From Pyropia yezoensis (taxonomy: Eukaryota > Rhodophyta > Bangiophyceae > Bangiales > Bangiaceae): DNA of 64,000 nt. The DNA lies in assembly GCA_009829735.1 (NCBI GenBank), contig CM020618.1:17593346-17657345 (forward strand). Reading direction: 5' to 3'. The notes under the pieces were generated by a model that ran no database searches, had not been told where the DNA came from, and was given only the letters and a program-made list of their open reading frames with translations. The translations under genes and the position numbers were made by a program. Shown here piece by piece: positions 3,705 to 46,742 of this stretch. The first letter of the stretch is position 1. Each line of letters begins with the position of its first letter.

Positions 3705-4066
3705 TGTAGCACAATAGGGAATCGTCGCACGTCCACTCTCAGGGAACACTCACCAAAGGGGATCGGCACCAACGTCACCGGGAGGCCAAGGTTGCTGTCC
3801 TTGGAGCGCAAGCCACGGGACCAAGATGGGAGCCCAAATGGGAGGGGTTTGTTGTTCTACCATGGCCGGCGGTAGATCCGCCGCCGGCCCCCTCGTTATA
3901 AACCCTCGGAGACACCACTAACTACCCTCCACCCCAAGATGCAAGTCCCTCTGGTCATACGTAACTCGCGGATACCGTGACCAGTACGAACTCTCAAACT
4001 GAAAGTTTAAGGAATAGTAGTAGCCCCCATAAATAGGGTCACAATACGGTTATCCATATTGCTACA
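3705..4066 (-). repeat. E1 3' LTR (left copy)
   Basis: 362 bp with 7-bp terminal inverted repeats TGTAGCA/TGCTACA. It holds a strong hairpin at about 3864-3890 (GGCCGGCGG and its complement) just before TATAAA at 3897-3902. The partner copy is 14230-14593, and the same LTR family bounds E2. Confidence 0.95.
3897..3902 (+). promoter_or_regulatory. TATAAA in LTR, directed toward the antisense ORF
   Basis: TATAAA is in the plus orientation, that is, antisense to gag-pol and pointing at the 838-aa ORF that starts about 750 bp downstream. The opposite strand reads TTTATA, so this site could serve both directions. It is conserved in all four LTR copies of E1 and E2. Promoter function is inferred. 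Confidence 0.4.
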
Positions 4067-4080
4067 TATCCCCCCCTTAG
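4067..4080 (-). promoter_or_regulatory. Polypurine tract of E1
   Basis: On the element strand this reads CTAAGGGGGGGATA immediately before the 3' LTR, the expected place for the plus-strand DNA primer of an LTR retrotransposon. The same tract sits at 28808-28821 in E2. Confidence 0.75.
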
Positions 4081-4652
4081 ATTCGGCCCGTCCTCGGGTC
4101 GATCCGCATTCGTCTTCCGAATGTAAGTGATCACGCGACCGTTTACCAGTCGGGTGGGGCTTTGCGCCCCTTCGCGGCCGACACTCCTATTCGGGGCTGA
4201 TTGAGGGGGGTGTCCCCCTTGGTATGGCGCGTACGCGGTCCGTTTTCCGGACCGTTGAATTCCCGATGCGGGATTGACTCACGACCCCTTTCCGGGGTGT
4301 GGTGCAAGTGGATCCGCCACCAGGCGTCTGGTGGTAGGGGAGCCCCTCTCGTGTGAACGTGTGAGTTGGGGCGGGGGCTGCCCGCTTTTCGCGGGGGCGG
4401 TTTCGGGGTGACCCCCCCCTTGATTGCCCCGTACGGGGGCACGGCTCCGGCCCAGGTGCCTGGGTGGAGCGCGCGCGTAGCTCCGTGTGGCGCGGGTCGA
4501 CCCGCGCCCCTCTATCGCCCCTCGTTGGGATTCTGGTGGTCATAAGCGCGGGTGCCCGCGCTTCCCTGGCTCGTCTCGGTGTTCCCACCGTACCGAGTCG
4601 TGGCCGGTGCCGGCTTGTTGGCACGGGGGACCCCTGCCGCTCCGGCCTCATC
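4081..4652 (+). other. Leader of the E1 antisense ORF
   Basis: GC-rich, conserved with E2 (28822-29391), including the segment just upstream of the start around 4533-4600. The frame is open from 4464, but E1 and E2 align best as protein from the ATG at 4653, so this is taken as untranslated leader. An upstream non-ATG start or a spliced leader cannot be excluded. Confidence 0.5.
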
Positions 4653-7169
4653 ATGTCAGACCCCGAGGTGCTCGGGGAGGCGGAAGACTTCCCGGTCCGG
4701 GAGGAGATGGAGGACGACGCGCCTGTCGGTCCTACCGCCGCCGAGCGTTACTTGGCGAGCTCGTCGGACGACGACGAGCCTTTGGGCGTCCGATTGTCGG
4801 CCGGAGGATTGTCGTCCGTCTGCAGCGGCACGACGGCGCCGTCGTTTGGCGGTCAACCCGGCGGTCGACCGCGCGTGGCGGCTTCTCCCCCGTCGCTTGG
4901 GGTTGCCCGGATGGGGCCTGGTGCCGGTGCTGGCTCGGCGGCACCTCAAGATGGTCCGCTAAGCGGCGGAGGCGGCGATTCCTTGCCGGCTCCGGTAGAG
5001 CAAGGGCGTCCGGGTGTCCGGTCGGTGCTTCCCCAAGACGGGGCGGGCGATGACGTGGGTGGTGGTGGCGGCGCCCCGCCCGATGTGGCGGGTCAAGATG
5101 GTGCAGGTGCCCGCGCGGTCGGTGCTCCGGCCCCGGAGGCGGTACAAGTGCCTTCTCCTCCTGAAGCGGGGGCGACGTCGACGGGCGGTGCCGCCGACGG
5201 TGCGCTACCCGCGGTGCCGCGGACGCCAAGCGGTCAAGACGTTCCTTCCCCGATGGCGGTCGACACCGGGAGTTACTCCGGGCGGGTGCCCGCCCTTCTT
5301 CTTCCCTCTCGACCCCGCGCTCCTGCGCCGGGGCATCTACCCGTTGGGCTTCCACCGGCGCCGGCGTTTCTTCCTGGGCCTGCCCGGGTCGCTCCGCTGG
5401 GTGGCCGTGTCGTCTTGGTCTGTGGCGGCGTCGCCTCGGCGGGTGGCGGTGACGCCTCTACGGTGGGACACCCCCCGTTGTCGGTCTCCGAGTTGGTGGC
5501 TCGGGTGCGCAGCTTGACCGTTCAAGAAGCCATGGACTCTGCTGGTCGGATGCGGGTGGACTCCCACCCGTCGGGTCACCGTGGAGGCACCTCCCGTCCG
5601 GTCCCGCTGGACCCCTGTTGGGAGCGGGAGTTGGCTCGGCTGGTTGCCCAGCCTGACGCGGTTCGCGTCGAGCATCATTGGATACTCAGTCAGCCGGACG
5701 ACCGGCATGCTCAACTCTGGCGCGCCCGGGTCGGGCGGCCTGAGGCGTCCCTCCACCCCGACTTTGGGGTGAGCGACTTGGTTGCTCCCGCGCTGCCGCG
5801 GGAGGTGGATTACCCCGCGGTTGCCCGCACGGTGGCTGCTTCACGAACCCCCGTAGCGTTCAGGCGCCTCGTGCCCGGAACCAACCGGTATCCCGGTTTG
5901 GAGTATTACCCGGGGGATTACCCGTATCTGTGGCTGACGCCGCCTTTCCCGCCCATGGCTGGGCTGAAGTCGGCGTCCAGCTGGCGTCGCAACCATGGTG
6001 TCATGGCGGACCCTTTTCGCACGGACATAACGTGCGCGTTGTACACCGGTAACGGTCGAGCTCCCGTGTACACTTTGTTGCGCCCGCCTGGGTGGCAAGA
6101 GGGGTGGGAGCCCGCCCCGGCTTTCCGGTTTGACACCGGTCCTTGCCTTCGCTATTCCGGCAGTGTGTTGGCCGGTCGGCCAACGCATGTGCTGCAGGGT
6201 GTTTTCACCCTGGAGGTTACCCTCCGGCAGGTTTCTTCCTTCTTGCTGTCGGTCCGCCGACAGGGCCGGTTGTTTCACCTTCCGACGGGTGTTCGTCGGC
6301 ACCTAGGGGAGCTAGGCGTTGCCGCCATTGCTGACGGGACGGGGCTCGTCCGTGAGCTGACTGCGCTCGTGGCCGTTCACGATGCCGTGAACTGGTCGGC
6401 GGTGGCGACCGTGCCCCCGTTCCGTGACGCGCAACCGGGAACGCTCCCGTTGCCTCGTCACTCGCTGCGTATCCGCCGAGTTACCTCGGGTGAGGATGGA
6501 TACCAAGGGTGGGCGTCCACCGAGTCGGTTCCTGACCTGGGTATTCCCGTGGTACTGCCTGACCCTCTCCAGGTGGGAACCCCCTGGTTCGGTCACCCGA
6601 CTCCTATGGGGACGGGTCGCCGTCGCCGTGAGTGGGACTCCACTGGTGGGGGCCGCGAGACGTATCGTCTTCGTGGGGAGTTCCACCGGATTCCCGGTGG
6701 GCGTTCTTCCCAGGAGTCTGGTCCTCCTTCACGGTCCTACCGTGCTCCTTACCAGGTACCGCCGGCTCCGGAGGTGGCTGTGTCCCCTCCTCCGGCTGTG
6801 GCTCCGGTCCCTCCGGTTGTTCTGGTGGCTTCGACGGCTCCCGTCATGCCCGACGGGGGTCCCCGTTTGTGGTATGAGGGCGTAGCCGCCCTTATCTCTC
6901 GTGAGTTGACGGAGGCGCCTCCGGTTAGCTGGGGGGATATCCCTCCTGGTGCTGCGCTGGTAGGTACTGCGCGTTGCCTCGGCTGGGTGCTTACCCGCCT
7001 CCAGATGGCGCTGGATGCTGTAGAGGCTGGTGACAGCACTCGGGTGAATCTTTGCACTGAGGTGACTCAGGCGCTCAACCGGCGTGAGATAGCCGACCGT
7101 TGGAGTGCGGAAGTGTACGCGACGACGCGTGACTGGCCTCCTCCTACTGACGGGGGTAACCCCTTCTGA
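4653..7169 (+). CDS. Antisense ORF protein of E1 (838 aa), unknown function
   Basis: Lies between pol and the 3' LTR on the strand opposite to gag-pol, running tail to tail with pol. The ATG at 4653 is chosen because E2 has a matching start (both begin MS-x-P-x-VL-x-E) and an acidic N-terminus (EEMEDDAPVG, then SSSDDDEP) follows. Residues about 60-300 are Gly/Pro/Ala/Val-rich and poorly conserved. The conserved core, about 330-620, includes VEHHWILSQPDDRHAQLWR, SASSWRRNHGV and SVRRQGRLFHLPTGVRRH. A second conserved block, from YEGV and VSWGDIPPGAALVG to DRWS-x-EVYA, closes the protein. There is no signal peptide, membrane segment or domain I recognise. Against E2, 14 of 16 changed codons in 5961-6071 are synonymous, so this is a selected protein. 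Extra antisense ORFs at this place are known from some plant Ty3/gypsy elements; whether this one is related cannot be judged here. Confidence 0.85.
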   Translation: MSDPEVLGEAEDFPVREEMEDDAPVGPTAAERYLASSSDDDEPLGVRLSAGGLSSVCSGTTAPSFGGQPGGRPRVAASPPSLGVARMGPGAGAGSAAPQDGPLSGGGGDSLPAPVEQGRPGVRSVLPQDGAGDDVGGGGGAPPDVAGQDGAGARAVGAPAPEAVQVPSPPEAGATSTGGAADGALPAVPRTPSGQDVPSPMAVDTGSYSGRVPALLLPSRPRAPAPGHLPVGLPPAPAFLPGPARVAPLGGRVVLVCGGVASAGGGDASTVGHPPLSVSELVARVRSLTVQEAMDSAGRMRVDSHPSGHRGGTSRPVPLDPCWERELARLVAQPDAVRVEHHWILSQPDDRHAQLWRARVGRPEASLHPDFGVSDLVAPALPREVDYPAVARTVAASRTPVAFRRLVPGTNRYPGLEYYPGDYPYLWLTPPFPPMAGLKSASSWRRNHGVMADPFRTDITCALYTGNGRAPVYTLLRPPGWQEGWEPAPAFRFDTGPCLRYSGSVLAGRPTHVLQGVFTLEVTLRQVSSFLLSVRRQGRLFHLPTGVRRHLGELGVAAIADGTGLVRELTALVAVHDAVNWSAVATVPPFRDAQPGTLPLPRHSLRIRRVTSGEDGYQGWASTESVPDLGIPVVLPDPLQVGTPWFGHPTPMGTGRRRREWDSTGGGRETYRLRGEFHRIPGGRSSQESGPPSRSYRAPYQVPPAPEVAVSPPPAVAPVPPVVLVASTAPVMPDGGPRLWYEGVAALISRELTEAPPVSWGDIPPGAALVGTARCLGWVLTRLQMALDAVEAGDSTRVNLCTEVTQALNRREIADRWSAEVYATTRDWPPPTDGGNPF

Positions 7170-7645
7170 TGGTTGTGGGTGTGAGAGTGAGGGACCCGGT
7201 GACCCTTATGGTAGCCGGGTAGTAGTGAGTATAAACTCATCCCCCGCTGGGGGCATTGCTTGCCTCTGTTTGCTGCCCTGGGGAGTACCCCTTCTGGCTC
7301 AGTGGTGCCTTGCCTCTCGTCCACCTTCTTCCGGTTGGTTCATGCTTGGGGAGGTCATCCTCCCTTACTCTGCGTCTTGGCTTGGAGAGGTCATCCTCCG
7401 GTGTAAGCCCCCTGGTTACTTCGATATTATCGGAGTTATCCTTTACCTTTTTAAGTCAACTTATTAAGGTTCAGGTTTACTTAGTTACCTAAGCTTGACT
7501 CTACTTAGTTACCTAAGCTTGGCTGGACTTAGTAGCCCAAGTCTGATTTGACTTAGTAACCTAAGTCTGCCATAACCATGTCACACCCTACTTAGTAGGA
7601 CTAAGCCCCAGCCCCCAACATCTGAAGACGGTGTCGGTTGGTTTG
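7170..7645. promoter_or_regulatory. Convergent 3' region of E1 with hairpin array
   Basis: Separates the stop of the antisense ORF from the stop of pol. The first 300 bp are strongly conserved with E2 (a CCCGG.../...GCCGGG hairpin near 7197-7222, then repeated GGGGAGGT-ATCCTCC blocks). From 7479 to 7606 there are five short units built on CTTAG-n4/5-CTAAG, each able to fold back, spaced about 24 bp apart. The position suggests shared 3'-end formation for two convergent transcripts; this is inference. Confidence 0.5.
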
Positions 7646-10600
7646 TTACAGGAGGCGGCGTCGCCTCATGTAAGGCATGAGGAGTTGGCGGGGTATATTC
7701 GCCGCCTGTTCCCTGGTGGGTGAGTCGTAACCGACCCACATTACCTTGACGTACCAGGGTTCTGGTAGGTCTGGGTAGGTATGTCCGACAATGCTCTCCA
7801 CTTGGTATGGTATTCCATCCGGTCCCACCGGGTCGTCCGACCGGTGGATGGTAAGTGCCTCACGTAGCAACCCAGCCGGTACCGGCTGAGGATGTTCCGG
7901 CTTCGGCGCCGGTGTGACATCACTCAAACTGATGCGTTGTATCTCCGTATCGGAGTGGAGGATAACAGAGTGGTCATCTCTGTGGAGGACCTGGTACGGT
8001 CCCTTGACCGGTTGCATGAGCTTGTTCCCTCGGAACTTCTGGTGTCTGATATAGACCCAGTCACCTGTCATCAGGGTAGCGTTGCGCACCCGTAGTCGGG
8101 CGTCGAAGTTCTTCTTGTACCGAAGTTGAGTACGGTCGAGGGCACCCTTGAGCTTAGGGATCATCCACGATAGCTTGGCTAACCAAGCTAGGTGGATCCA
8201 TTCGGCCGGACGGCCCTTCGGTGTGTCATACCGAGTGCACCTGTCTGTTGGCAACGTGAGGTTACCCACACCCAGTGGCATGACCCACTCTAGTGGGGCG
8301 ATGTTCGTGCTTCTGTGTGGCCTGGCGTTATACGCCAGGGTGAGTACGGACAGGAGCCTGTCCCATGTGTTCGTGTGCTCGGCCACGTAGCATTTTAGCA
8401 TTTTGACGATGGTTCGGTTGAACCGCTTCACTTGCCCGTTGGTTTGCGGGTGGTAGTCAGACGCCCGACGTGGTTCGATCCCGAACATGCCCATGACCTT
8501 CGTGCAGAATGCCGACGTAAAGTTTGCTCCGTTGTCGGAGAGGAGTTGCTTCATGACTCCGTATGCACTGATCCAGTGGTCAACCACTGCGTTCATGATG
8601 GTGTATGCCGTATCATCCGGGATGGCTGCCGCTCGTGACAGCTTAGTGAAGCCGTCAGACATGACCAGGATGTATCTGTTCCCTTCTTCCGTTACCGGAA
8701 GTGGCCCGAGTTTGTCCATAGCGACTTGCTCGTTGGGCCCATCGGGTGGGAATAGTTTCATAGCAGATGCCTGCCTATGTAGACTCATGCGGTTGCGTGC
8801 ACAGGGGTGGCATCCCCTTACGTGGTCAACCACGTCGACGGCCATTGCTGGCCAGTAGAAGAATCTTCGCATCGCTGCGAACATGCGTGAACCCCCCGGG
8901 TGTCCGGCTGTAGGGTTCTCGTGTTCTCGTTCCATGACGGCTTGCCGCAAGGATACGGGAACCGCGACTTGATGTCGTCCATCGGCGGGTGCCCGCCGGT
9001 ATATGAGTCCGTCTTCATTCTCGGAGAAGATGCCCGCCGTACCGGCCAGGAGGTTGGCGCGACGGCGTCTACAGTCGTCGTCATTGGCTTGTGCCTCGCG
9101 GAAGTCTGCGAGGGTCAGTGGGCACGCGCGGTGTGCCATGGTACGGTCAACCATACCTTGGGTGGCGTTACCCACCATGCAGACCGGTACCACCGGGATG
9201 TCCTCGTCCACCGGTCGGGTATCTCCACTCGGGGTGTCCAGTCGAGACAATGCATCTCCGAGGTGGTGGGATGACCCAGCCTTATAGACGGTACGATAGT
9301 CGTGCTCGGCCATCTTCAGCCTCCATCGGGCTAGCCTCCCATGGCTATCGGAATCCTTGTCACCAAGGTTGAGAAGCCATCGTAGGGGTTCGTGGTCGGA
9401 CCTCACGATGAACCTGGAGCCCTCCAGGTATGGACGGAGCAGTTGTACTGCCCATACAACTCCGAGGCACTCGCGCTCGGTGGCACTATAGTTACGTTCA
9501 GCTGGGTTGAGTGTCCGGCTGAAGTATCCTACCGGACGTAGGGCCGGGATAACGTTATCAGTACCGATCGCCGTCTCTCCCTGTAACAGGGTGCACCCCA
9601 CCTGGAAGTCGCATGCATCGACATCGATGACGAAGGTTCCTCGTCTATGCGGTAACGCAAAGACAGGTGGGGCCAGTAGGGCTCGCTTCAGCGACTCGAA
9701 TGCCTCCTCTTCGCTTGGCGAAGGGGGTTGGAGTACCTTCGGCAAGGTGCTGCTCGTCAAAACCGTTAACGGTTTAGCTATCCGAGCGAAGTCCTTGACG
9801 AACCGTCGGTACACGTTACACATTCCCAGGAAGCTTTTGAGCTGCGTCTGGGTGTTGGGGAACCTGGCGTCCCGGAGTGCCCGGGTATTGGCTTCGAGTA
9901 CCCCTAGGTTACCAGGGGTTATCTGGTGACCCAGATACTCAACTGTCTGCTGGAAGAAGGCGCACTTCTTGAGACGCAGGGTTACCCCGGCGTTCCTCAA
10001 GAGGGTGAGTACCTCGTCCACTTGTTGCACATGGTCATCCATGTTACGCGAGAAGACGATGACGTCATCGAGGTACACTAGGCAGTTACGCCACTTCACC
10101 CCCGACAGTATAATGTCGATAGCCCGCTGGAATGTAGCGGGTGCGTTGGATAATCCGAAGGGCATCCTTAGGAACTCGTACACTCCACTGTGACAGACGA
10201 ACGCTGTCTTGGGGATATCCTCCTCTGCCACTAGGATCTGCCAGTAACCGGCATTGCAGTCGATGGTGGTAAACACTGTAGCTTCCCCCAGGGAGTCGAT
10301 GCATTCATCCATCCTTGGTAAAGGGTATGAGTCCTTCTTGGTTACCAAGTTGAGGCGCCGATAATCGATGCAGAACCGAGGGGTTTGCTCCTTCTTCGGT
10401 ACGATGACTACTGGGGCACCCCACTCCGACATCGAAGGTCGGATCACCTTAGCTTCGCTTATCCTCTTCACTTCTCCGTCAACGATCTCTCGTTGCATAG
10501 GTCCCGCTCGGTGCGGTTGTGACCGGGCGGGTCGTGCGCCTGGTACCAGGTCTATACGATGTTGGGTTGCCCCAATGGTACCCAGGGCCCCGCCTGTCCA

Positions 10601-11812
10601 CATGACGTCATGCTTTCTTAACATCCGTCGTACCCCTTCGGCTACCGAAGGGTGAAGGTGGTCGAGGTCAGCCTCGGCCAGGGTCTTTAATGCTTCTTGG
10701 TCCTTCGGCGGAATATCCGCCGGTACTGGTGGTCGGCCAGGCCTCCCGACGTCGGGTTCGTCCTGCTCGGGGGTATCGGCGGCCGCCAGCACTTCAAGTG
10801 GTTCTACTTGACCCCCCCCTTCCGGGATAAGGATGTCTTTTTCATAGAGCTCGGCAATTCCGAGGATAGTCCCTTTCGGGAGGGTGACTGCCTTACGGCG
10901 ACAGTTCGCCATCACGAGTAGGGACGACCCTCCCGCCGGGAGGTCTATGAGCCCGTTCGCCATGGTCAACCCATGGCGCTTGTACGTTAGCAGGTTGGAC
11001 TGGACTCTGCAGATGCCTCCGAGGTCACCGTTAACCGGGAGGACTGTCTCCGACATTGGCTCAAAGCGAGTTCGCTTGGCCAGCCGAAGTGTCTTCGGCT
11101 CTACGCTTGCGTACACCTCAGCCACTTTGACGTGGCTCGGTTGTAGCGTGAGGTCCCTGACGATATCTGTCTGTCCTCTCTTCGTCCCGTCGGCCTCTTG
11201 CAGCTCGACGGTCTTCCGGCCCGGCCGGATTGCATCAACGTGAACGTTGATGAAGGTGCATCCCAGTATGCAGGGCACCGATAGGGTCTCACATACCAGG
11301 AAGTCGACTTTCGTGGTGAGTTCCCCGATTGTAACCCGCAGCGACATCGCTGCGGTCGTACGAATGAGGCGACCATTCGCGTCCTTGATGGTGGGTCCCC
11401 GGGTCACTCTGACACGCGGGAGCCACTTGTCCGGGAGGGTATCCTTCCGGATAAGGTTGGGCCCAGCTCCTGTATCCAGTACAGGGTAATACGATCGTGT
11501 CGACTGGGGGTCAACCCCCAGTGTGGCTGATACCTTGAAGCTCTCCAAGGTAATCAGCACATGTCCTACACCGATATCCGGTGTTCCTCGGGCATCCTGG
11601 ACAGGGCCCGTAACTGGTTCAACGTGGCGGGGCTTCCCGTCCTCTCCTTCCAACCTTGGAGGTTGGTCATCAATCCCCCGACGCCGTGTCGTCGGGGCCG
11701 GAAGGTGTACCCGGGGATTGATGCGGCGTCGGCTCAACCGCGCTCTCCGTGGGGCTTTCCCCGCGGCAGTCCGGGGTGGCTTGCTTGGGTTACCCCAGCG
11801 ACCCCATGTCAC
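7646..11812 (-). CDS. pol: E1 Pol polyprotein, 1388 codons, integrase active site lost
   Basis: Aspartic protease motif DTGAG at residues 113-117. Reverse transcriptase spans about 430-620 with FCIDYRRLN and YLDD (580-583). RNase H spans about 725-860. Integrase has an N-terminal H/C finger (H964, H971, C1001, C1004) and catalytic Asp1033 and Asp1093. The third acidic residue, Glu in E2 at position 1129 (GQVER), is Lys here (GQVKR), which should abolish integration. A chromodomain-like tail (about 1334-1384: YQVESIV, WYVKVMWVGYDSPT) normally targets integration to chromatin marks. The ATG used by E2 is GTG here. The frame begins 8 nt after the gag stop and is offset from gag. Minus-strand stop is TAA. 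Confidence 0.93.
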   Translation of the reverse strand: MTWGRWGNPSKPPRTAAGKAPRRARLSRRRINPRVHLPAPTTRRRGIDDQPPRLEGEDGKPRHVEPVTGPVQDARGTPDIGVGHVLITLESFKVSATLGVDPQSTRSYYPVLDTGAGPNLIRKDTLPDKWLPRVRVTRGPTIKDANGRLIRTTAAMSLRVTIGELTTKVDFLVCETLSVPCILGCTFINVHVDAIRPGRKTVELQEADGTKRGQTDIVRDLTLQPSHVKVAEVYASVEPKTLRLAKRTRFEPMSETVLPVNGDLGGICRVQSNLLTYKRHGLTMANGLIDLPAGGSSLLVMANCRRKAVTLPKGTILGIAELYEKDILIPEGGGQVEPLEVLAAADTPEQDEPDVGRPGRPPVPADIPPKDQEALKTLAEADLDHLHPSVAEGVRRMLRKHDVMWTGGALGTIGATQHRIDLVPGARPARSQPHRAGPMQREIVDGEVKRISEAKVIRPSMSEWGAPVVIVPKKEQTPRFCIDYRRLNLVTKKDSYPLPRMDECIDSLGEATVFTTIDCNAGYWQILVAEEDIPKTAFVCHSGVYEFLRMPFGLSNAPATFQRAIDIILSGVKWRNCLVYLDDVIVFSRNMDDHVQQVDEVLTLLRNAGVTLRLKKCAFFQQTVEYLGHQITPGNLGVLEANTRALRDARFPNTQTQLKSFLGMCNVYRRFVKDFARIAKPLTVLTSSTLPKVLQPPSPSEEEAFESLKRALLAPPVFALPHRRGTFVIDVDACDFQVGCTLLQGETAIGTDNVIPALRPVGYFSRTLNPAERNYSATERECLGVVWAVQLLRPYLEGSRFIVRSDHEPLRWLLNLGDKDSDSHGRLARWRLKMAEHDYRTVYKAGSSHHLGDALSRLDTPSGDTRPVDEDIPVVPVCMVGNATQGMVDRTMAHRACPLTLADFREAQANDDDCRRRRANLLAGTAGIFSENEDGLIYRRAPADGRHQVAVPVSLRQAVMEREHENPTAGHPGGSRMFAAMRRFFYWPAMAVDVVDHVRGCHPCARNRMSLHRQASAMKLFPPDGPNEQVAMDKLGPLPVTEEGNRYILVMSDGFTKLSRAAAIPDDTAYTIMNAVVDHWISAYGVMKQLLSDNGANFTSAFCTKVMGMFGIEPRRASDYHPQTNGQVKRFNRTIVKMLKCYVAEHTNTWDRLLSVLTLAYNARPHRSTNIAPLEWVMPLGVGNLTLPTDRCTRYDTPKGRPAEWIHLAWLAKLSWMIPKLKGALDRTQLRYKKNFDARLRVRNATLMTGDWVYIRHQKFRGNKLMQPVKGPYQVLHRDDHSVILHSDTEIQRISLSDVTPAPKPEHPQPVPAGLLREALTIHRSDDPVGPDGIPYQVESIVGHTYPDLPEPWYVKVMWVGYDSPTREQAANIPRQLLMPYMRRRRLL

Positions 11813-11820
11813 CCTTCCTC

Positions 11821-14004
11821 TTACTCGTTTCCCGCACTTGGTCGGGTACTGTCTGCCGGGATATCCGGACGAGGAGGTGCCTCCTCGACGGCCAGTACTC
11901 CACCTGGAGCTGGCTGCCTACCCGGTGCGGGTCCGGGTGCTCTGGCGGGATACCCCCCCGTGGATGCCTTGCGTTGCGCAGCTGCCCGCCGAGACTCCTC
12001 GGGGATGAGTGGGCAGGAAGACACCCAGTGCTGGGGATCTCCGCACAACATACACCCGGATGTGCCGCCCCCTCCTTGGGTCCGCATCGGGGTAGCCCCA
12101 TAGGTCCGGTTGCCTCCCTCGGGCGCCCGAGTGCCTGCTCCCTGGTAGGCCTTGGATCCTTGGGTCAGCCTGAACATGGACTCACCCAACCGGTTGGGTC
12201 GGCCCGCAATCTGCGGAGGTGCCTCCGTACGTACCGCCCACGTTGGCAAGGGTTGATGTGGGTTACCCGTCACCGGGGAGTACCCCGTAGTCCGTACATA
12301 CGGGACGCGACGTCCCGCGCCCTCGCTAACCTGGAACTGGGTCCCAGCCAAGGCGATGTACGCTACCGTACCTTGCTCGTCGATCACCGGCGTAGCCAGT
12401 AGCAACAGGTGGCCCTGCTGGTCGACCAGGGGTTCCTCCTCTCCCGTGGGGGCGTAATCGATCGCCACCAGTACTGGTGCGGCCTTACGTTCCACCTTAT
12501 CTTGCCTCGGTATCGGGGTAAGATTGAGCTTGCTCCCCTCACCCTTGGGCTTCGGGGCTAGGGCGCACTCCGGGTGAAGAACCCGGTAGGCGTCCCCCAG
12601 GGACTTGCACATGTGCATCAGTCGACTGAAGATCGTCCGAGCCGTATTCGCTCCCCGTGCGGATATCCGCACGTAGTTGGGTACTCCTGCGAACAGGATA
12701 GCCCGTAGCTCTCCTTCTCCTAGGAGCTTCCCCAGCTCGTAGTCGAGCTCTTGGATCGGGCGTCCGAACATCTCCTCATCCTCCCAGCTCTGGGCGGTGG
12801 CAGTGCGCAGAGCCCGGTAGTGGTCCTCGCATTTGTCCTCACTGAAGTAGCTGCTCAGCAGCTCCTTCAATATCCCACGGTAATCCATGGGGGTTGCCGC
12901 GACTCTCATCCCCGGCATCGGGGATGCCTGGCGAAGGATGCCTCGCACCCGTTCATCAACAAAGAACGGGAGGATCTCCAGGGCTAACCCCTCGTTAACG
13001 AGTGCCTTGTCCGCGGCTGCCTTGAAGCTGGTCAAGAACCCGATGACTGCCAACGGACGTCCGTTCGGTCCCCCGAACGTAGGGACTCCCTACATCAGGG
13101 TCTTCATAGAGCGGATCGCTCGATGCGAGGTATTACGAATCGACTCCGATACGGTGGTGGAACGGTCCTCCAGACGGTAACGTTCCGGAGTCAGTACCGA
13201 ACGGAATACTTCATTGACAATCTCCGTGTCAGCGTCCTGGGTATCCAGTCGCTCGGCCAGCTGGTGAGTAAACTCATCAGACTCCATCCGCTTCAATAAG
13301 CTCGCAGTAACCTGCGCGGTCATATCCTGTACCAGCGACGCTGGTACTTCCGGCATCGGCACCTCGGGTACCCAAGTTTCCTGGCTTCCCCCGTCGTGGG
13401 GATACTGGGACAGGGTACCGCCCCCCCCCATAGCCGATTCTGCCCCGGCGTAAGTGTCCGCCGGGTCGTGTCCGCGGAGTCCGCTTCGGGTGCTCCGAGC
13501 GTAACGCTCCGTGTGACTACGTTCCAACTTGGCTGACGAGTCGGATCCATAACCCGCCGTATCCGGGGGCTGTCCGGGAGTTGCTTTGTCGGGGTCGACC
13601 CCGGTAGACTCCGAAAGGAGACCGGCCGGTTCGAACCGTACCGGTGTGGGAGGAACACGACGGGGTACCGCCGTGTGGCGTGTTGACATCAACACTGCCA
13701 TTGCGTCCTCTGTGCGCTCTTGACGTGCGTCAAGTCCGGAGAACCGGGCCTCGATGCGGGCCAATGATGCCATCAGGGAATCCCCTGGTGAAGGAGGCGG
13801 CGGAGTAAGGTCGTTCGACGACGGTTGAGGCGGGCCACCGCCCCCTGCCGTCCAGGCCGTACCAAACGTCGATCCAGCACCGGAAAGCATCGGCGTCTCA
13901 ATGTTGTCGATCGGGTTCCCGATCCCGGTTCCCGTAGTCACCTCCGGGGTCGGCGCCGACGCCGATCCGTCATCTTGAACGTTCCCCGTCTCTTGGGTAG
14001 ACAT
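11821..14004 (-). pseudogene. gag: E1 Gag, interrupted by one TAG
   Basis: Structural protein of the retrotransposon particle. The start at 14004 (MSTQETGN) is shared with E2. The N-terminal third is Pro/Ser/Thr-rich, the capsid-like middle is helical, and a CCHC knuckle CMLCGDPQHWVSSC near the C-terminus binds RNA. E2 has an intact 727-aa version. In E1 codon 13090-13092 (minus strand) is TAG where E2 has AAG, splitting the frame into an N-terminal part (13090-14004) and a 410-codon remainder (11821-13053). The rest is undamaged, so this is either a single late inactivating hit or a read-through position. Confidence 0.9.
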
Positions 14005-14229
14005 AGTCACCATCAGAAAACCGACGTAACAGTCACCACGAATAAAAGAGCGAGGGGGTAGGTTGGGGAGAGTAACGGTAGATCGCAGTCAAAGGTAACA
14101 ACTCAACACAATCGAACAGATCGCGACACCACGAGTACAAGAAAAGGACCGGATCCCTATCCGTGTGCCAGGGCCGAAGACGGCGTCACCACAAGGGTGA
14201 CGGAAACCCGTCCCCTGCTGCTCCACCAA
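14005..14229 (-). other. E1 5' leader between LTR and gag
   Basis: Contains the primer-binding site next to the LTR and about 200 bp of leader that may hold packaging signals. It is nearly identical to E2 (48927-49151). No ORF. Confidence 0.6.
14211..14228 (-). promoter_or_regulatory. Primer-binding site of E1
   Basis: On the element strand, one base after the 5' LTR, TGGTGGAGCAGCAGGGGA. This is complementary to the 3' end of a tRNA finishing CTGCTCC-A-CCA. The identical 18-mer follows the LTRs of E2 and of the different family E3. I cannot name the tRNA from this window. Confidence 0.8.
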
Positions 14230-14593
14230 TGTAGCACAATAGGGAATCATCGCACGTCCACTCTCAGGGAACACTCACCAAGGGGGATCGGCACCAACGT
14301 CACCGGGAGGCCAAGGTTGCTGTCCTTGGAGCGCAAGCCACGGGACCAAGATGGGAGCCCAAATGGGAGGGGTTTGTTGTTCTACCATGGCCGGCGGTAG
14401 ATCCGCCGCCGGCCCCCTCGTTATAAACCCTCGGAGACACCACTAACTACCCTCCACCCCAAGATGCAAGTCCCTCTGGTCATACGTAACTCGCGGATAC
14501 CGTGACCAGTACGAGCTCTCGAACTGAAAGTTTAAGGAATAGAAGTAGCCCCCCCCTAGATAGGGTCACAATACGGTTGCCCATATTGCTACA
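14230..14593 (-). repeat. E1 5' LTR (right copy)
   Basis: 364 bp, partner of 3705-4066, differing at about ten positions by eye (mostly near the inner end). It should carry the gag-pol promoter on the minus strand; the only TATA-like sequence is the TTTATAA opposite the plus-strand TATAAA at about 14422. Confidence 0.95.
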
Positions 14594-22133: not shown

Positions 22134-22135
22134 TT

Positions 22136-22153
22136 TGGTGGAGCAGCAGGGGA
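22136..22153 (+). promoter_or_regulatory. Primer-binding site of E3
   Basis: TGGTGGAGCAGCAGGGGA, two bases after the LTR, identical to the primer-binding sites of E1 and E2 although the LTRs are unrelated. Confidence 0.8.
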
Positions 22154-28444: not shown

Positions 28445-28807
28445 TGTAGCACAATAGGAATCCGTCGCACGTCCACTCTCAGGGAACACTCACCAAGGGG
28501 GATCGGCACCGACGTCACCGGGAGGCCAAGGTTGCTGTCCTTGGAGCGCAAGCCACGGGACCAAGATGGGAGCCCAAATGGGAGGGGTTTGTTGTTCTAC
28601 CTTGGCCGGCGGTGGATTCGCCACCGGCCCCCTCGTTATAAACCCTCGGAGACACTACTAACTACCCTCCACCCCAAGATGCAAGTCCCTCTGGTCATAC
28701 GTAACTTATAGATACCGTGGCCAGTACGAACTATCAAATTGAAAGTTAAGGGTTAGAAGTAGCCCCCCTGATATTAGGGTCACAATACGGACAACCATAT
28801 TGCTACA
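28445..28807 (-). repeat. E2 3' LTR (left copy)
   Basis: 363 bp, TGTAGCA...TGCTACA. Carries TATAAA on the plus strand at 28637-28642, aimed at the antisense ORF as in E1. Two differences from 49152-49514. Confidence 0.95.
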
Positions 28808-28821
28808 TATCCCCCCCTTAG
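28808..28821 (-). promoter_or_regulatory. Polypurine tract of E2
   Basis: Element-strand purine run (TAAGGGGGGGATA) abutting the 3' LTR, as at 4067-4080 in E1. Confidence 0.75.
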
Positions 28822-29391
28822 ATTCGGCCCGTCCTCGGGTCGAGTTGCATTCGGGGTACCGAATGTAAGTGGGTCGCGTGACCGTTTACCCGTCGGGTGG
28901 GGCTTTGCGCCCCGTCGCGACAGACACCCCTTTTCGAGGTTGTCTCAGGGGGGTGCCCCCCTTTGCGTGGTACACACACACGATCCGTTTTCCGGACCGT
29001 TAAATTCCCGATGCGGGTTGCTGTTCACGCCCCCCCTTTCCGAGGGGTGGTGCAAGCGGATCCGCCACCAGGTGCCTGGTGGTAGGGGGGCCCCTCTCGT
29101 GTGGACGATTGAGTGGGGGGCGGGGGCTGCGCGCGTTGCGTGGGGGCGGTTGGGGGTGACCCCCCTTACTTACCCCGTGTGTGGGTGTGGCCCCGTCCCG
29201 CCCATGTGCCTGGGTGGAGCGCGGTCGTAGCCCCGTGGGGCGCGGGTCGACCCGCGTGCCTGCGGCGCTTCTCGTGGCCGTTTGTGGTCATAAGCGCGGG
29301 TGTCCGCGCTTCCCTGGCTCGTCCCGGTTATCCCACCGTACCGGGTTGTAGCCGTCGACGGCTTGTGGGCGCGGGGGACTCCGCACCCGTT
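28822..29391 (+). other. Leader of the E2 antisense ORF
   Basis: Counterpart of 4081-4652. GC-rich with conserved short hairpins; no separate gene seen. The part from 28994 on is repeated from 39241. Confidence 0.5.
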
Positions 29392-31842
29392 ATGATGTCC
29401 TATCCCCAGGTGCTTGAAGAGGAGGAAGACCTCCTGATCGGGGAGGAGATGGAGGACGACGCGCCTGTCGGTCCCGACGCCGCACGTTACGGGGTGAGCT
29501 CGTCTGACGACGACGGGCCTGCGGTGTCCGTCCGTCTGTCGGCCGGAGGACTGTCGTCCGTGTGCAGCGGCACGACGGTGCCGTCGGCCGGAGGTCAACC
29601 CGGCGGTCAACCGCGCGTGGCGGCTTCTGCCCCCTCTCTGCCGGCTGCCCGGATGGAGCCTGGTGCCGGTGCCGGCTCACCGCAGGTACCTCAAGATGGT
29701 CCGCCCTGCGGCGGAGGTGGCGACCCGCAGCCGACTCCGGCTGGTCAAGGGGGTCCGGGGGTCCGGGCGGTGACTCCTCGAGGCGGTCCCGACGTTGACG
29801 CGGGTGATGGTGGCGGTGCGACACCCGGTGCGGTGGGTCAAGACGGTGCGGGTGTCCGCACGGCCGGGGCTCCGGCTCCGGAGGCTGTCCAAGTGCCTTC
29901 CACTTCCGAGGCGGGGGCTACGCCGACGGGTGGTGCCGGCGCCGGTACCATACCTGCGGTGCCGCGGGTGTCGAGCGGTCAAGACGCTCCTTCTCCCATG
30001 GCGGTTGACACCGGGAGTTACTCCGGGCGGGCGCCCGCCCTTCTTCTTCCTCCTCGGCCTCGTCCATCTCCGACGTCGGCCCCTCTGCCGGTGGTGCGTC
30101 CCCCGGCGCCCCCGATTCTTCCTGGTCCTGCCCGGGTTGCCCCGTTGGGTGGCGGCGTCGCCGTGGCGGCGGGTCAACCCGCCATGTCGGTGTCCAACTT
30201 GGTGGCTCGGGTTCGAGGCCTCACGGTGCAAGAGTCGATGGAGTCCGATGGGCGTATGCGGGTGGACTTCCACCTGGTGCATCCCCGTGGAGAATCCTCC
30301 CGGCGCGTCAAGGTGGACCCGTGCTGGGAGCGGGAGTTGGTGCGGCTGGTCAACCAGCCGAACGCGGTCCGGGTGGAACACCATTGGATCCTGAGTCAGC
30401 CGGACGACCGGCATGCGCAGCTCTGGCGCACCCGGGTGGGACGGGGTGAGGTCTACCTCGACCCCAACTTCGGGGTCTGCGACTTGATTGCCCCCGCGTT
30501 GCCGCGGGAGATTGACTACCCGGCTAGTGCTCGGGGGATTGCGGCGGCGGCGGAGCCGGTTGCGTTTGGGGAGACGGTGAGCCGTACCGGTCGGTATCCC
30601 GACTTTGACTACTACCCGGGGGAACCCCCGTATCTGTCGTTGACGGCTCCCTACCCGCCCATGGCGGGGTTGAAGTCGGCGTCGAGTTGGCGACGTAACC
30701 ATGGTGTCATGGCCGATGCGTTCCGCACGGATATAACGTGTGCGTTGCAGACCGGCAACGGTCGTGCTCCGGTATACACTCCCGTGCGCCCGCAGCTATG
30801 GCAGGAGGGGTGGGAACCCGCCCCTGCTTTCCGGTTTGACACCGGCTCCTGCCTTCGCTACTTCGGGAGTGTGTTGGCCTCGCGACCGGTCCACCCGTTG
30901 CAGGGTACCTTCACCCTTGAGGTTACCCTCGGGCAGGCTTCATCCTTCTTGCTGTCCGTCCGCCGGCAGGGTCGTCTGTTTCATCTTCCGACGGGTGTCC
31001 GTCGGCACATCGCGCAGTTGGGCGTGGATCTGATAGCCGCCAAGACCGGGTTGGCCCGGGAGTTCGAAGCCCTGCTGGCTGTTCACGATGCCGTGAACTG
31101 GGCTGGGGTGTTGGACCTTCCCCCGTACCGGGACCCGCAGGCTGGGGCTTCCCCCTTGCCTCGTCACTCGTTGCGTGTCCGGCGTACTCAGCCGGGTGAG
31201 CCCAGTTGCCATGGGTGGGCATCCACCGAGGCTGTTGCTGACCTGGGTATTCCCATGGTTATCCATGACCCTCTTCAGGTCCTTGCTCCGTGGTTCGGTA
31301 ACCCGATGCCGGCGGCGGTAGGCCGTCGTCCCCGAGAGTGGGGCTCTGTGGGTGGGGAGCGTGAGGTGTCCCGTCGTCGGGCGGAGTACCGCCGTGGTTA
31401 CGGTGGAGCCCCTTCGGTAGGGTCCTACCGGGCCTCGTATCAGGTGCCACCGGCTCCGGTGGTAGCCGTGTCGGCTCCTGTGGCTCCTCTGGCTGCGCCA
31501 GTGTCACCTCCCGCCCCTGTCCTACATGACGGGGGTCCCCGTCTCTGGTATGAAGGCGTTGACGCCCTTGTTACCCGCGCAATGCGTGGGGGTCTCTCTG
31601 TTAGCTGGGGGGATATCCCCCCAGGTGCTGCGCTGGTTGGGTCAGCGCGTTGCTTCGGTGGCGTGCTGGACCGCCTCCAGAAAGCTCTGGAGGACGTGGA
31701 GGCTGGCCGCAGCACCCTCGTCCAGCTATGCACCGAGGTAACTCGGGTGGTCGACCGTCGTGACGTTGCCGACCGGTGGAGCACGGAGGTCTACGCGCTT
31801 ACGCGTGAGTGGCCTCCCTCGGGCAGTGGGTCTACCCACTGA
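29392..31842 (+). CDS. Antisense ORF protein of E2 (816 aa), unknown function
   Basis: Same protein as 4653-7169 in E1. Two adjacent ATGs at 29392 and 29395; the second aligns with E1's start and is the only one in the other assembled copy. Acidic N-terminus (EEMEDDAPVG, SSSDDDGPA), Gly/Pro/Ala-rich linker, then the conserved core (HHWILSQPDDRHAQLWR, SASSWRRNHGVMAD, SVRRQGRLFHLPTGVRRH) and the final block (VSWGDIPPGAALVG, ADRWSTEVYA). It differs from E1 chiefly at third codon positions in the core, while the linker is more variable. Convergent with pol, 480 bp apart. No recognised domain; expression would be from the LTR TATAAA at 28637 if that site works. Confidence 0.85.
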   Translation: MMSYPQVLEEEEDLLIGEEMEDDAPVGPDAARYGVSSSDDDGPAVSVRLSAGGLSSVCSGTTVPSAGGQPGGQPRVAASAPSLPAARMEPGAGAGSPQVPQDGPPCGGGGDPQPTPAGQGGPGVRAVTPRGGPDVDAGDGGGATPGAVGQDGAGVRTAGAPAPEAVQVPSTSEAGATPTGGAGAGTIPAVPRVSSGQDAPSPMAVDTGSYSGRAPALLLPPRPRPSPTSAPLPVVRPPAPPILPGPARVAPLGGGVAVAAGQPAMSVSNLVARVRGLTVQESMESDGRMRVDFHLVHPRGESSRRVKVDPCWERELVRLVNQPNAVRVEHHWILSQPDDRHAQLWRTRVGRGEVYLDPNFGVCDLIAPALPREIDYPASARGIAAAAEPVAFGETVSRTGRYPDFDYYPGEPPYLSLTAPYPPMAGLKSASSWRRNHGVMADAFRTDITCALQTGNGRAPVYTPVRPQLWQEGWEPAPAFRFDTGSCLRYFGSVLASRPVHPLQGTFTLEVTLGQASSFLLSVRRQGRLFHLPTGVRRHIAQLGVDLIAAKTGLAREFEALLAVHDAVNWAGVLDLPPYRDPQAGASPLPRHSLRVRRTQPGEPSCHGWASTEAVADLGIPMVIHDPLQVLAPWFGNPMPAAVGRRPREWGSVGGEREVSRRRAEYRRGYGGAPSVGSYRASYQVPPAPVVAVSAPVAPLAAPVSPPAPVLHDGGPRLWYEGVDALVTRAMRGGLSVSWGDIPPGAALVGSARCFGGVLDRLQKALEDVEAGRSTLVQLCTEVTRVVDRRDVADRWSTEVYALTREWPPSGSGSTH

Positions 31843-32322
31843 GGAGTGCTATTGTTTGTGCGGGAGAGGGCCCCGGCAACCCTTATGGTAGCCGGGTAGT
31901 AGTGAGTATAAACTCATCCCCCGCTGGGGGCATTGCTTGCCTCTGTTTGCTGCCCTGGGGAGTACCCCTTCTGGCTCAGTGGTGCCTTGCCTCCCGTCCA
32001 ACTTCTTCCGGTTGGTTCATGCTTGGGGAGGTTATCCTCCCTCACTTTGTGTCTTGGCTTGGGGAGGTCATCCTCCCGTGTAAGCTCCCTAGTTACTTCG
32101 ATATTATCGGAGTTAGCCTTTACCTTTAAGTTAACTTATTGAAGTTCAGGTTTTTACTTAGTTACCTAAGCTTAGCTCTACTTAGTTACCTAAGCTTGGT
32201 TCGACTTAGAAATCTAAGTCTGATTTGACTTAGAAACCTAAGTCTGCCGTACCCACGTCACACCCTACTTAGTAGGTATAAGCCTCACCCCCCAACAGCC
32301 GAAGTCGGTGTCGGTTGGGTTG
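31843..32322. promoter_or_regulatory. Convergent 3' region of E2 with hairpin array
   Basis: Counterpart of 7170-7645. The CTTAG...CTAAG hairpin array lies at 32156-32282. Conservation with E1 is high although it codes for nothing, which argues for a function at RNA or DNA level. Confidence 0.5.
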
Positions 32323-35300
32323 TTACAGTAGGCGTCGTCGCCTCATGTAAGGCATGAGTAGTTGGCGGGGTATATTCGCCGCCTGTTCCCAGGTGGGTGA
32401 GTCGTATCCGACCCACATAACCTTGACGTACCAGGGTCCTGGTATGTCCGGGTCGGTGTGTCCGACCACGCTCTCTACTTGGTATGGAATCCCATCCGGT
32501 CCCACCGGGTCATCCGACCGGTGGGTTGTAAGAGCTTCATGTAGCAACCCAGCCGGTACCGGCTGAGGCTGTTCCGGCTTCGGAGCAGGTGTGACATCAT
32601 TCATACTGATGCGTTGGATCTCCGTATCGGAGTGTAAGATAACAGAGTGGTCATCTCTGTGGAGGATCTGGTACGGTCCCTTGACCGGTTGCATAAGCTT
32701 GTTCCCTCGGAACTTCTGGTGTCTGATATAGACCCAGTCACCTGTTACCAGGGTTGCGTTGCGCACCCGTAGTCGGGCGTCGAAGTTCTTCTTATACCGA
32801 AGTTGTGTTCTGTCAAGGGCACCCTTGAGCTTAGGAATCATCCACGATAGCTTGGCCAACCAAGCTAGGTGGATGCGTTCGGCGGGTCGGCCCTTCGGTG
32901 TATCATACCGAGTGCACCTGCCGGGTGGCAGCGTCAAGTTACCGACGCCTAGTGGCATGACCCACTCCAGCGGAGCAATGTTTGTGCTCCGATGTGGCCT
33001 GGCATTGTATGCCAGGGTGAGTACGGACAGAAGCCTGTCCCAAGTGTTCGTGTGCTCGGCCACGTAGCACTGTAGCATCTTGACGATGGTGCGGTTGAAC
33101 CGCTCCACCTGCCCGTTGGACTGCGGGTGGTAGTCGGATGCCCGACGTGGTTCGATACCGAACATGCCCAGGACCTTTGTGCAGAATGCCGACGTAAGGT
33201 TTGCTCCGTTATCGGAGAGGAGTTGCTTCATGACTCCGTATGCACTGATCCAGTGGTCAACCACTGCGTTCATGATCGTGTATGCCGTATCATTCGGGAT
33301 GGCTGCCGCTCTTGACAGCTTAGTGAATCGGTCAGACATGACCAGGATGTACCTGTTCCCTTCTTCCGTTATCGGAAGTGGCCCGAGTATGTCGATAGCG
33401 ACTTGCTCGTTGGGCCCATCAGGTGGGAATAGCTTCATGGCAGACGCCCGCCTATGTAGACTCATGCGGTTACGTGCACAGGGGTGGCATCCCCGTACGT
33501 GGTCGACCACGTCGACGGCCATTGCTGGCCAGTAGAAGAACCTTCGCATTGCTGCGAACATACGTGAACCCCCCGGGTGTCCGGCTGTAGGGTTCTCATG
33601 TTCTCGTTTCATGACGGCTTGCCGTAAGGACACGGGAACCACGACTTGATGTCGTCCATCGGCGGGTGCCCGCCGGTATATGAGTCCGTCTTCGTTCTCG
33701 GAGAAGATGCCGGCCGTACCGGCCAGGAGGTTAGCACGATGACGTCTACAGTCATCGTCGTTGGCCTGTGCCTCGCGGAAGTCCGCGAGGGTCAATGGGC
33801 ACGCAAGGTGTGCCATGGTATGGTCAGCCATACCCTGGGTAGCATTACCCACCATGCACACCGGTACTACCGGGATGTCCTCGTCCACCGGGCGGGTATC
33901 CCCGCTCGGGGTGTCGAGTCGAGACAACGCGTCTCCGAGGTGGTGGGTTGACCCAGCCTTATACACCGTGCGGTAGTCGTGCTCGGCCATCTTCAGCCTC
34001 CATCGGGCTAGCCTCCCATGGCTATCGGAATCCTTGTCACCAAGGTTGAGGAGCCATCGTAGGGGTTCGTGGTCGGACCTCACGATGAACCTGGAGCCCT
34101 CCAGGTATGGACGGAGCAGTTGCACTGCCCATATAACTCCGAGGCATTCACGCTCGGTGGCACTATAGTTCCGCTCAGCCGGGTTGAGTGTCCGGCTGAA
34201 GTACCCTACCGGACGTAGGTCCGGGATAACGTTGTCGGTACCGATCAACGTCTCTCCCTGTAACAGGGTGCATCCCACTTGTGTATCACACGCATCGACA
34301 TCGATGACGAAGGTACCCCGTCTATGCGGTAACGCAAGGACGGGTGGGGCTAGTAGGGTTCGCTTCAGCGACTCGAATGCCTCCTCTTCGCTAGGCGAAG
34401 GGGGTTGGAGTACCTTGGGTAAGGTACTGCTCGTAAGAACCGTTAACGGTTTAGCTATCCGAGCGAAGTCCTTGACGAACCGTCGGTATACATTGCACAT
34501 TCCCAGGAAGCTCTTGAGCTGCGTCTGGGTGTTAGGGAATCGGGCATCCCGGAGTGCCCGGGTATTGGCTTCGAGTACCCCTAGTTTACCAGGGGTTATC
34601 TGGTGGCCCAGATACTCGACCGTCTGTTGGAAGAAGGCGCACTTCTTCAGACGCAGGGTTACCCCGGCGTTCCTCAAGAGGGTGAGTACCTCGTCCACAT
34701 GTTGCACATGGTCATCCATGCTACGCGAGAAGACGATGACGTCATCGAGGTACACTAGGCAGCTACGCCACTTCACCCCCGACAGTATGATGTCGATAGC
34801 CCGCTGGAATGTAGCGGGGGCGTTGGACAATCCGAAGGGCATCCTTAGGAACTCGTACACTCCACTGTGACAGACGAATGCCGTCTTGGGGATATCCTCG
34901 TCCGCCACCGGGATCTGCCAGTATCCGGCATTGCAGTCGATGGTGGTAAACACCGTAGCCTCCCCCAGGGAGTCGATGCATTCATCCATCCTTGGTAAAG
35001 GGTATGAGTCCTTCTTGGTAACCAAGTTGAGGCGTCGATAATCGATGCAAAACCGAGGGGTTTGATCCTTCTTCGGCACAATAACGACTGGGGCACCCCA
35101 TTCCGACATCGAAGGTCGGATCACCTTAGCTTCACTCATCCTCTTCACTTCTCCATCAACGATCTCTCGTTGCATAGGTCCCGCTCGGTGCGGTTGTGAG
35201 CGGGCGGGTCGTGCGCCTGGTACCAGGTCTATACGATGTTGGGTTGCCCCAATGGTCCCCAAGGCCCCGCCTGTCCACATAACGTCATGCTTTCTTAGCA

Positions 35301-36489: not shown

Positions 36490-36497
36490 CCTTCCTC

Positions 36498-38680
36498 TTA
36501 CTCGTTTCCCGCCCTTGGTAGGGTGCTGTCCGCCGGGACATCCGGCTGAGGAGGTGCCCCCTCGACGGCCAGTACTCCACCTGGAGCTGGCTGCCTACCC
36601 GGTGCGGGTCCGGGTGCTCGGGCGGGATATCCCCCAGTAGATGCCTTGCGTTGCGCCGCTGCCCGCCGAGACTCCTCGGGGATGAGTGGGCAGGAAGACA
36701 CCCAGTGCTGGGGATCCCCACACAACATACACCCGGACGTGCCGGTCCCCCCTTGAGTTCGCATCGGGGTAGCCCCGTAGCCACGGTTGCCTCCCTCGGG
36801 CGCCCGAGTGCCTGCTCCCTGGTAGGCCTTGGGTCCTTGGGTCAACCAGAACATGGATTCCCCCAACCGGCTGGGTCGGCCCGCAATCTGCGGAGGTGCC
36901 TCCGTGCGCACCGCCCATGTTGGCAAGGGTTGGTGAGGGTTACCCGTCACCGGGGAGTACCCCGTAGTCCGCACATACGGGACGCGCCGTCCCGTGCCTT
37001 CGTTGACCTGGAACTGGGTTCCAGCCGGGGCGATGTACGCTACCGTACCATGTTCATCAATCACCGGCGTCGCCGGCAGCAACAGGTGGCCCTGTTGGTC
37101 GACTAGAGGGTCATCCTCACCAATAGGGGTATGTTCGGTCGCCACCAGTACTGGTGCGGCCTTACGTTCCACCTTCTCTTGCCTCGGTACCGGGGTAAGA
37201 CTGGGCTTGCCTCCCTCACCCTTGGGCTTCGGGGCCAAGGCACACTCCGGGTGTACAACCCGGTAGGCGTCCCCTAGGGACTTGCACATATGCATCAGTC
37301 GACTGAAGTTCGTCCGTGCCGTGTTGGCGCCCCGTGCGGATATCCGCACGTAGTTGGGTACTCCTGCGAACAGGATGGCCCGTAGCTCCCCTTCTCCGAG
37401 GAGCTTCCCCAGCTCGTAGTCGAGCTCTTGGATCCGGCGTCCAAACATCTCCTCATCCTCCCAGGACTGGGCGGTGGCAGTGCGAAGGGCCCGATAGTGG
37501 TCCTCGCACTTGTCCTCACTGAGGTAGCTGCTCAGCAGCTCCTTCAATATCCCACGGTAATCCATGGGGGTGGCCGCGACCCTCATTCCGGCATCGGGGA
37601 TGCCTGGCGAAGAATGCCTCGCACCTGTTCATCAACAAAGAACGGGAGGATCTCCAGAGCCAGCCCCTCGTTAACGAGCGCCTTGTCTGCGGCTGCCTTG
37701 AAGCTAGTCAAGAAGCCGATGACTGCCAACGGGCGTCCGTTCGGCCCCCCGAACATAGGGACTCCCTTCATAAGGGGTCTGCATAGAGCGGATCGCCCGA
37801 TGCGACGTATTACGCATCGATTCCGATACGGTGGTAGAGCGGTCCTCCAAACGATAACGTTCCGGAGTAAGAACCGACCGGAAGACCTCGTTGACGATCT
37901 CCGTGTCAGCGTCCTGGATATCCAGTCGCTTAGCCAGTTGATGAGCGAACTCATCGGACTCCATCCGCTTCAGTAGGCTCGCAGTTACCTGCGCGGTCAT
38001 AGCTTCCACCACTGGAAGATGGTACTTCAGGCGTCGGCACCTCGGGAACCCGAGTTGCCTGGCCTCCTTTCGTCGTGGGGGTACTGCGAGAGGGTACCTC
38101 CTCCCCCAATAACCGACTCTCCCCCGGCGTACGTATCCGCCGGGTCGTGTCCGCGGAGTCCGCTTCGGGTGCTCCGAGCGTATCGCTCCGTGTGACTCCG
38201 TTCCAATTCTGCCGACGAGTCGGACCCATACCCCATTGTGTCCGGGGGTTGTCCAGGAGTAGCAACACCGGGTTGACCCTGGTGGACTCCGAAAGTAGTC
38301 CGGCCGGTTCGAACCGTACCGGTGTGGGAGGAACACGACGGGGTCCCGTCGTGTGCCGTGTTGACATCAACACTGCCATTGCGTCCTCCGTCCGATCTTG
38401 ACGGGCGTCGAGCCCGGAAAAACCGGGCCTCGATGCGGGCCAATGATGCCATCAGGGAATCCCCTGGTGAAGGAGGCGGCGGAGTGAGGTCGGTCGACGA
38501 CAGTTGAGGCGGGCCCCGCTCCTGCCGTCCGAGCCGTGCCAAACGTCGATCCGGCACCGGAAAGCATTGGCGTCTCAATGTTATCGATCGGGTTCCCGAT
38601 CCGGTTCCCGTAGTCACCTCCGGGGTCGGCGTCGACGCCGATCCGTCATCTTGAACGTTCCCCGTCTCTTGGGTAGACAT
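36498..38680 (-). pseudogene. gag: E2 Gag as read at the left contig end, frames broken
   Basis: The same gag as 46743-48926, but with about eight single-base gains or losses, all in homopolymer runs and all in the last 1.2 kb before the gap (for example near 37587, 37774, 38016, 38068, 38270, 38418). The clean copy shows that these are most likely consensus errors at a contig end and not biological damage. Confidence 0.85.
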
Positions 38681-38740
38681 GGTCACAATCAGTCAACCGA
38701 CGTATCAATCACCACGAACAAGAGAGCGAGGGGGTAGATT

Positions 38741-46734: not shown

Positions 46735-46742
46735 CCTTCCTC

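Follow-up and report, generated by a model that had tools for sequence, protein, structure and literature searches.

The locus examined here raises the question of why a retrotransposon of the red alga Pyropia yezoensis should carry a large open reading frame (ORF) on the strand opposite to gag-pol, whether that ORF is a gene at all and, if so, what its product might do for the element. The ORF lies between pol and the 3' long terminal repeat (LTR) of an element designated E1, near the start of a 64,000-nucleotide stretch of contig CM020618.1 that was analyzed as a whole and is referred to as the window. A preliminary description, made from the letters of the window, had reported this ORF together with a homolog in a second element, E2, and the coordinates and lengths that it gave for both were confirmed. 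The features on which the argument depends are collected in Table 1.

Table 1. Positions of features in the 64,000-nucleotide window
Feature	Position	Strand	Remarks
E1 3' LTR	3705..4066	-	96.98% identity to 14230-14593; TG...CA ends; CTCCC flank
Candidate antisense promoter and 5' UTR (proposed from position)	4067..4652	+	586 nt, from 3' LTR/polypurine tract to antisense ATG
E1 antisense accessory ORF	4653 (ATG)..7169 (stop)	+	838 codons, between pol and 3' LTR
E1 convergent intergenic stretch	7170..7645		476 nt between two stop codons
E1 CTTAGnnnnCTAAG palindrome array	7479..7565		4 units, 24-bp spacing: 3 perfect, 1 with one mismatch
E1 pol	7646..11812	-	protease-like, RT, RNase H, integrase, weak C-terminal chromodomain
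E1 gag	11821..14010	-	one in-frame stop at codon 307 of 729
E1 5' LTR	14230..14593	-	TG...CA ends; CTCCC flank
E2, 3' part of second element up to gap	28445..38740	-
E2 antisense ORF	29392..31842	+	816 codons, homolog of E1 ORF
E2 CTTAGnnnnCTAAG palindrome array	32157..32242		4 perfect units, 24-bp spacing
Scaffold gap	38741..39240		500 N
E3, probably the E2 element assembled twice	39241..49514	-	short length differences interrupt the antisense ORF

E1 is a Ty3/gypsy element (Metaviridae) on the minus strand, as seen from the order of its gag-pol domains, the TG...CA ends of its LTRs and its short target duplication, the pentanucleotide CTCCC found at both ends. Pfam matches in pol follow the order RVT_1, RNase H, H2C2 and rve, with a protease match below the cut-off. 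At the end of pol the chromodomain profile PF00385 gave a weak match to the segment of the type found in E2 and E3 (E = 0.0032; 17.8 bits against a cut-off of 25.1) and a weak match to that of E1 (E = 0.18), and it gave none at E values up to 1 when the whole of pol served as the query. The window also holds another Ty3/gypsy pol, on the plus strand at 24103-27585 and divided into two ORFs (RT/RNase H, followed by integrase with a weak chromodomain), near which no homolog of the antisense ORF was recognizable; the only further tblastn match to the ORF in the window lies at 22808-23110, with an E value of 0.53. Other features of the window are a 516-aa ORF at 54415-55965 that contains a trypsin-family domain (E = 5e-21) and is overlapped by long ORFs on the opposite strand, and repeats of about 270-480 bp, 93-97% identical, that are common to 21404-22141 and 51043-52270.

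Several lines of evidence demonstrate that the antisense ORF is a real gene and that its plus-strand protein is under purifying selection. First, the stop-free run around the ORF extends for 934 codons, against a longest run of 509 in 2000 mononucleotide shuffles of positions 4067-7645. Second, comparison of the E1 and E2 copies over 810 codons (Nei-Gojobori) gave a dN of 0.197 and a dS of 0.607, a ratio of 0.325, while maximum likelihood with F3x4 codon frequencies gave an ω of 0.292, with a 2ΔlnL of 149.1 against ω = 1; these estimates are drawn from a single pair of nucleotide sequences, E1 and E2, the remaining homologs being proteins only. The substitutions are distributed 159/136/289 over the first, second and third codon positions. 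Third, stops interrupt each of the five alternative frames at 15-36 codon positions, in one copy or in both; frame -2, which shares its third positions with the ORF frame, has 34 of them. Fourth, when substitutions were placed neutrally in 300 runs, the ratio averaged 0.91 (sd 0.09, minimum 0.70) under the same counting as that applied to the observed value, and a mean of 9.3 premature stops arose per 584 substitutions.

Constraint varies along the protein. Residues 1-219, a low-complexity N-terminus, are weakly constrained (ω = 0.62, 2ΔlnL 5.0), and ω falls to 0.221 over residues 220-838, with values of 0.192 in the core (330-640) and 0.199 in residues 641-838; the corresponding value for pol is 0.138. 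The preliminary description had argued for selection from a sample of 37 codons (5961-6071 against 30667-30777), 16 of which differ and 14 of which do so synonymously. That count is exact, and the selection that it suggested is borne out by the full comparison.

The number of independent copies in the window bears on how this evidence is to be read. Over 9.7 kb, E2 and E3 show 99.6% identity; a gap of exactly 500 N separates them, and they have a common outer 5-bp duplication, GGCCC. Because of these three properties they are probably a single insertion assembled twice, which leaves two independent element copies. Both of these carry the antisense ORF. Between the E3 and E2 copies of the ORF, 6 of 2442 aligned bases are substituted, and the lengths disagree at 14 places, thirteen times by one base and once by two; we read this stretch of E3 as poorly polished, its broken frame telling little about decay.

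The preliminary description had also attached weight to the fact that E1 keeps the ORF open despite an interrupted gag and a defective integrase. Both defects were found: gag has its in-frame stop, and the integrase has K at the position where E3 has the E of the motif GQVERFNR, which we take to be the catalytic E of DD35E. The open frame is nevertheless weak evidence for function, since the LTRs of E1 differ at 9 of 362 sites, so that about 31 neutral substitutions, and with them about 0.5 stop codon, are expected in the ORF since insertion.

The E1 protein consists of an N-terminus (residues 1-300), a core (about 300-640, conserved from about 330 onward), an Arg-rich linker (about 650-690, within the segment 640-730) and a helical C-terminal part. 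In E1 and E2, respectively, the first 300 residues are acidic (pI 4.4 and 4.6) and rich in Gly, Pro and Ala, the core has a pI of 9.5 and 8.3, and the linker has a pI of 11.1 and 10.4; the acidic start recurs in the family members P0004 and P0008, and the Arg-rich linker recurs in homologs. Structure prediction was confident in one region only, the C-terminal helices at about 765-826, whose best part reaches a pLDDT of 73-84, and no confident fold was predicted for the core from 17-19 sequences. No strongly hydrophobic or transmembrane-like segment was found (best 19-residue hydropathy means 1.58 and 1.37). An envelope-like protein was considered and rejected, the ORF being antisense and lacking such a segment. 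The profile TRP28/Transposase_28 (PF04195), likewise tried and rejected, gave no match at E values up to 1 with P0001, P0002 or 19 family members, a test in which HMMER filters discard most hits with E values beyond about 0.1, so that very distant kinship could escape.

Searches of Pfam and the PDB returned no convincing family or chain match for the protein, in agreement with the earlier statement that no known domain fits, and because of this the proposal of a new protein family stands. A search of 5.8 billion protein sequences recovered at least 6 homologs, and a profile search at least 17, including those 6, with about 8000 candidates considered in each; they are 40-71% identical to the E1 protein over stretches of 95-665 aligned residues. 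Seven of the 17 homologs listed are Pyropia vietnamensis locus tags (MMPV_009242, 008948, 008454, 001347, 009449, 008444 and 006872), which represent clusters totaling 29 member sequences, point to a repeated gene family in that species and stand there as "hypothetical proteins", a matter of practical interest to annotators; by themselves they would suggest a bangiophyte red alga as the host. The other ten are unnamed contigs. Among the matches listed there is no relative outside Pyropia and unnamed contigs, and among these protein matches, which come without genomic context, no host ortholog was recognized. With pol as the query, no P. vietnamensis (MMPV) protein appears among the best 120 of 1667 matches. 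The kind of gene, an antisense accessory ORF, is a known one; the protein family looks new.

Two sets of comparisons bear on the history of the gene. First, E1 and E2 differ at silent sites by a dS of 0.31 for gag, 0.27 for pol and 0.32 for the opening 150 codons of the antisense gene, along which it climbs to 0.5-0.85 towards the gene end. Divergence then drops abruptly near 7200, from 19 differences in 50 bases at 7155-7204 to none in 100 at 7205-7304. Uneven silent rates may account for this E1/E2 pattern, in which two DNA sequences are compared; divergence is uneven in the 3' LTR as well (10 of 250 bases at 3705-3954 against 16 of 99 at 3955-4054), and one window within gag has a dS of 0.56. 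The 100 identical bases may reflect constraint, for example on a common 3'-end signal, rather than recent exchange.

Second, in a comparison of E1, E2 and P0004, an assembled contig, the sites that group E1 with E2, E2 with P0004 and E1 with P0004 number 49, 9 and 20 in residues 1-199, 1, 3 and 5 in residues 200-259, and 7, 74 and 4 in residues 260-602. The best break in relationship falls at residue 219 and was matched by none of 1000 permutations, in a test that considers the E1+E2 and E2+P0004 classes, leaves out the E1+P0004 class, assumes exchangeable sites and includes a low-complexity N-terminus that is gapped in P0004. That the gene is a mosaic, parts of which were apparently exchanged between element lineages, is thus well supported but from few sequences, and template-switching recombination between related elements would explain the mosaic pattern best.

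The intergenic stretch between the convergent stop codons contains an array of CTTAGnnnnCTAAG palindromes in both E1 and E2, and E3 carries the same four units as E2. Within the window the array is unique to this element, and the chance expectation for exact matches is 0.01. A second palindrome pair, of the GGGAGGTCATCCTCC type and with its members 36 bp apart, occurs at 7344-7399 in E1 and at 32021-32077 in E2. The RNA of the intergenic stretches of E1 and E2 is predicted to fold better than all of 200 shuffles each (z = -2.8 and -3.2), as expected because of the palindromes; the array may be read either as DNA or as RNA. The mosaic history and the array provide testable handles on how the protein acts and on what it binds. 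A dimeric product of the antisense gene could, for instance, recognize the CTTAGnnnnCTAAG palindromes and so balance sense and antisense transcription, in the manner of a phage or plasmid repressor at iteron-like sites. We regard this as a long shot; if it were true, the 3' third of the element would form a self-contained control module with an exchangeable antisense gene, and the retrotransposon would possess its own copy control of the repressor/operator type, swapped between lineages by template switching.

Taking these observations together with the analogies discussed below, we consider the ORF most likely to be an accessory gene in antisense orientation, of the kind represented by Grande gene23 and the TRP28 ORFs of Retand, and probably a regulatory one. 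The faster change of the protein relative to pol, and the apparent exchange of the gene as a module, fit an accessory function better than a catalytic one. We infer an own promoter, as reported for gene23, together with nuclear action and regulation: transcription would start in the stretch between the 3' LTR and the antisense ATG, in which E1 and E2 have diverged by about 18% (104 of 589 aligned bases, in bins spanning 4055-4654), and would run convergent to gag-pol; the product would be a nuclear or nucleic-acid-binding protein; and it would regulate the transcription or retrotransposition of the element, or shield the element from the host. For this mechanism in its entirety, which goes beyond the coding capacity and constraint documented above, we put the chances at about even.

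The main rival to the regulatory reading, which it partly overlaps, is counter-defense, in which the product would block small-RNA or chromatin silencing by the alga and an arms race would drive both divergence and gene swapping. Such a history would fit the mosaic exchange between lineages and the rapid change of the protein, whose dN between E1 and E2 exceeds by far those of pol (0.035) and gag (0.045). The protein has, however, no domain or motif for such a role, and its ω is about 0.2 in core and C-terminus, with no sign of positive selection overall. We consider counter-defense unlikely. The roles that the preliminary description had floated, those of silencing suppressor, RNA chaperone or particle component, found no support beyond guesswork.

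The last of these would make the product a second capsid-like protein or nucleic-acid chaperone, translated from a separate antisense mRNA, and the large size of the protein, its Arg-rich segment and its helical end would suit the task. The gag of E3, however, is an open frame of 729 codons that includes its own CCHC-like knuckle (a very weak match, E = 0.072), and antisense expression is in our judgment an odd route for a protein needed in stoichiometric amounts, so a place in the particle strikes us as quite improbable. Much the same holds for a host gene picked up by the element, or a foreign element nested in it, as a passenger without function for the retrotransposon. The absence of Pfam similarity to gag, pol or known transposable-element proteins would fit such an origin, but the ORF occupies the same position in both copies and has remained constrained at a dS of 0.61, against 0.27-0.31 in gag-pol; moreover, the family is a repeated one in P. 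vietnamensis, and the matches listed contained no recognizable host ortholog. That the antisense RNA itself matters, through double-stranded RNA control of the element, and that the ORF is incidental is hardly credible, for although convergent genes can make double-stranded RNA and antisense transcripts without a protein role exist (PMC7264820), selection in phase with the codons means that a protein is kept, a pattern that RNA alone does not predict.

The reading of the ORF as a regulatory accessory gene draws in part on its likeness to known systems. The preliminary description had drawn an analogy to the extra antisense ORFs of plant Ty3/gypsy elements, and the analogy is apt. LTR retrotransposons with accessory genes in antisense have been reported from flowering plants and fungi, and the functions of these genes are called unknown (PMC7264820, PMC11963269). 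The term aORF-3R covers ORFs that, as in Grande, RIRE2, Retand and the fungal Boty, run antisense in the space separating pol from the 3' LTR (PMC7264820); the ORF studied here has the position and orientation that define this class. In the titles and abstract openings covered, no antisense ORF in a red-algal retrotransposon was recognized.

The closest parallel is gene23 of the maize Ty3/gypsy element Grande, which shares this position and orientation and encodes a protein without clear relatives. It differs in its land-plant host and in that its own promoter and nuclear product are reported, as described in PMC7264820, and the likeness is one of description. The ORFs of Retand and RIRE2 share the place and orientation, and tandem repeats occur in the region between pol and the 3' LTR in about half of the Retand elements that were recently active (PMC11963269), to which the 24-bp palindrome array may be compared. 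The Retand ORF, however, has the TRP28 domain (PF04195), for which DNA binding is predicted (PMC7264820, PMC11963269), whereas the protein described here has no match to it; and Retand belongs to a non-chromovirus lineage of eudicots and Liliopsida (PMC11963269), whereas the pol described here ends in a weak chromodomain-like segment. The brtn gene of Boty, from Botrytis cinerea and Sclerotinia sclerotiorum, shows that an antisense gene in the aORF-3R position is found outside land plants (PMC7264820), although its host is a fungus and the likeness is one of position and orientation. More distantly, HBZ of HTLV-1 is an antisense retroelement gene with a nuclear product (PMC11963269); it differs in host, size and architecture, and we claim no homology to it. 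Set beside these systems, a constrained antisense gene without detectable kin in a red alga would mean that genes of this sort have originated or been retained more than once, and that their role is therefore likely to be general.
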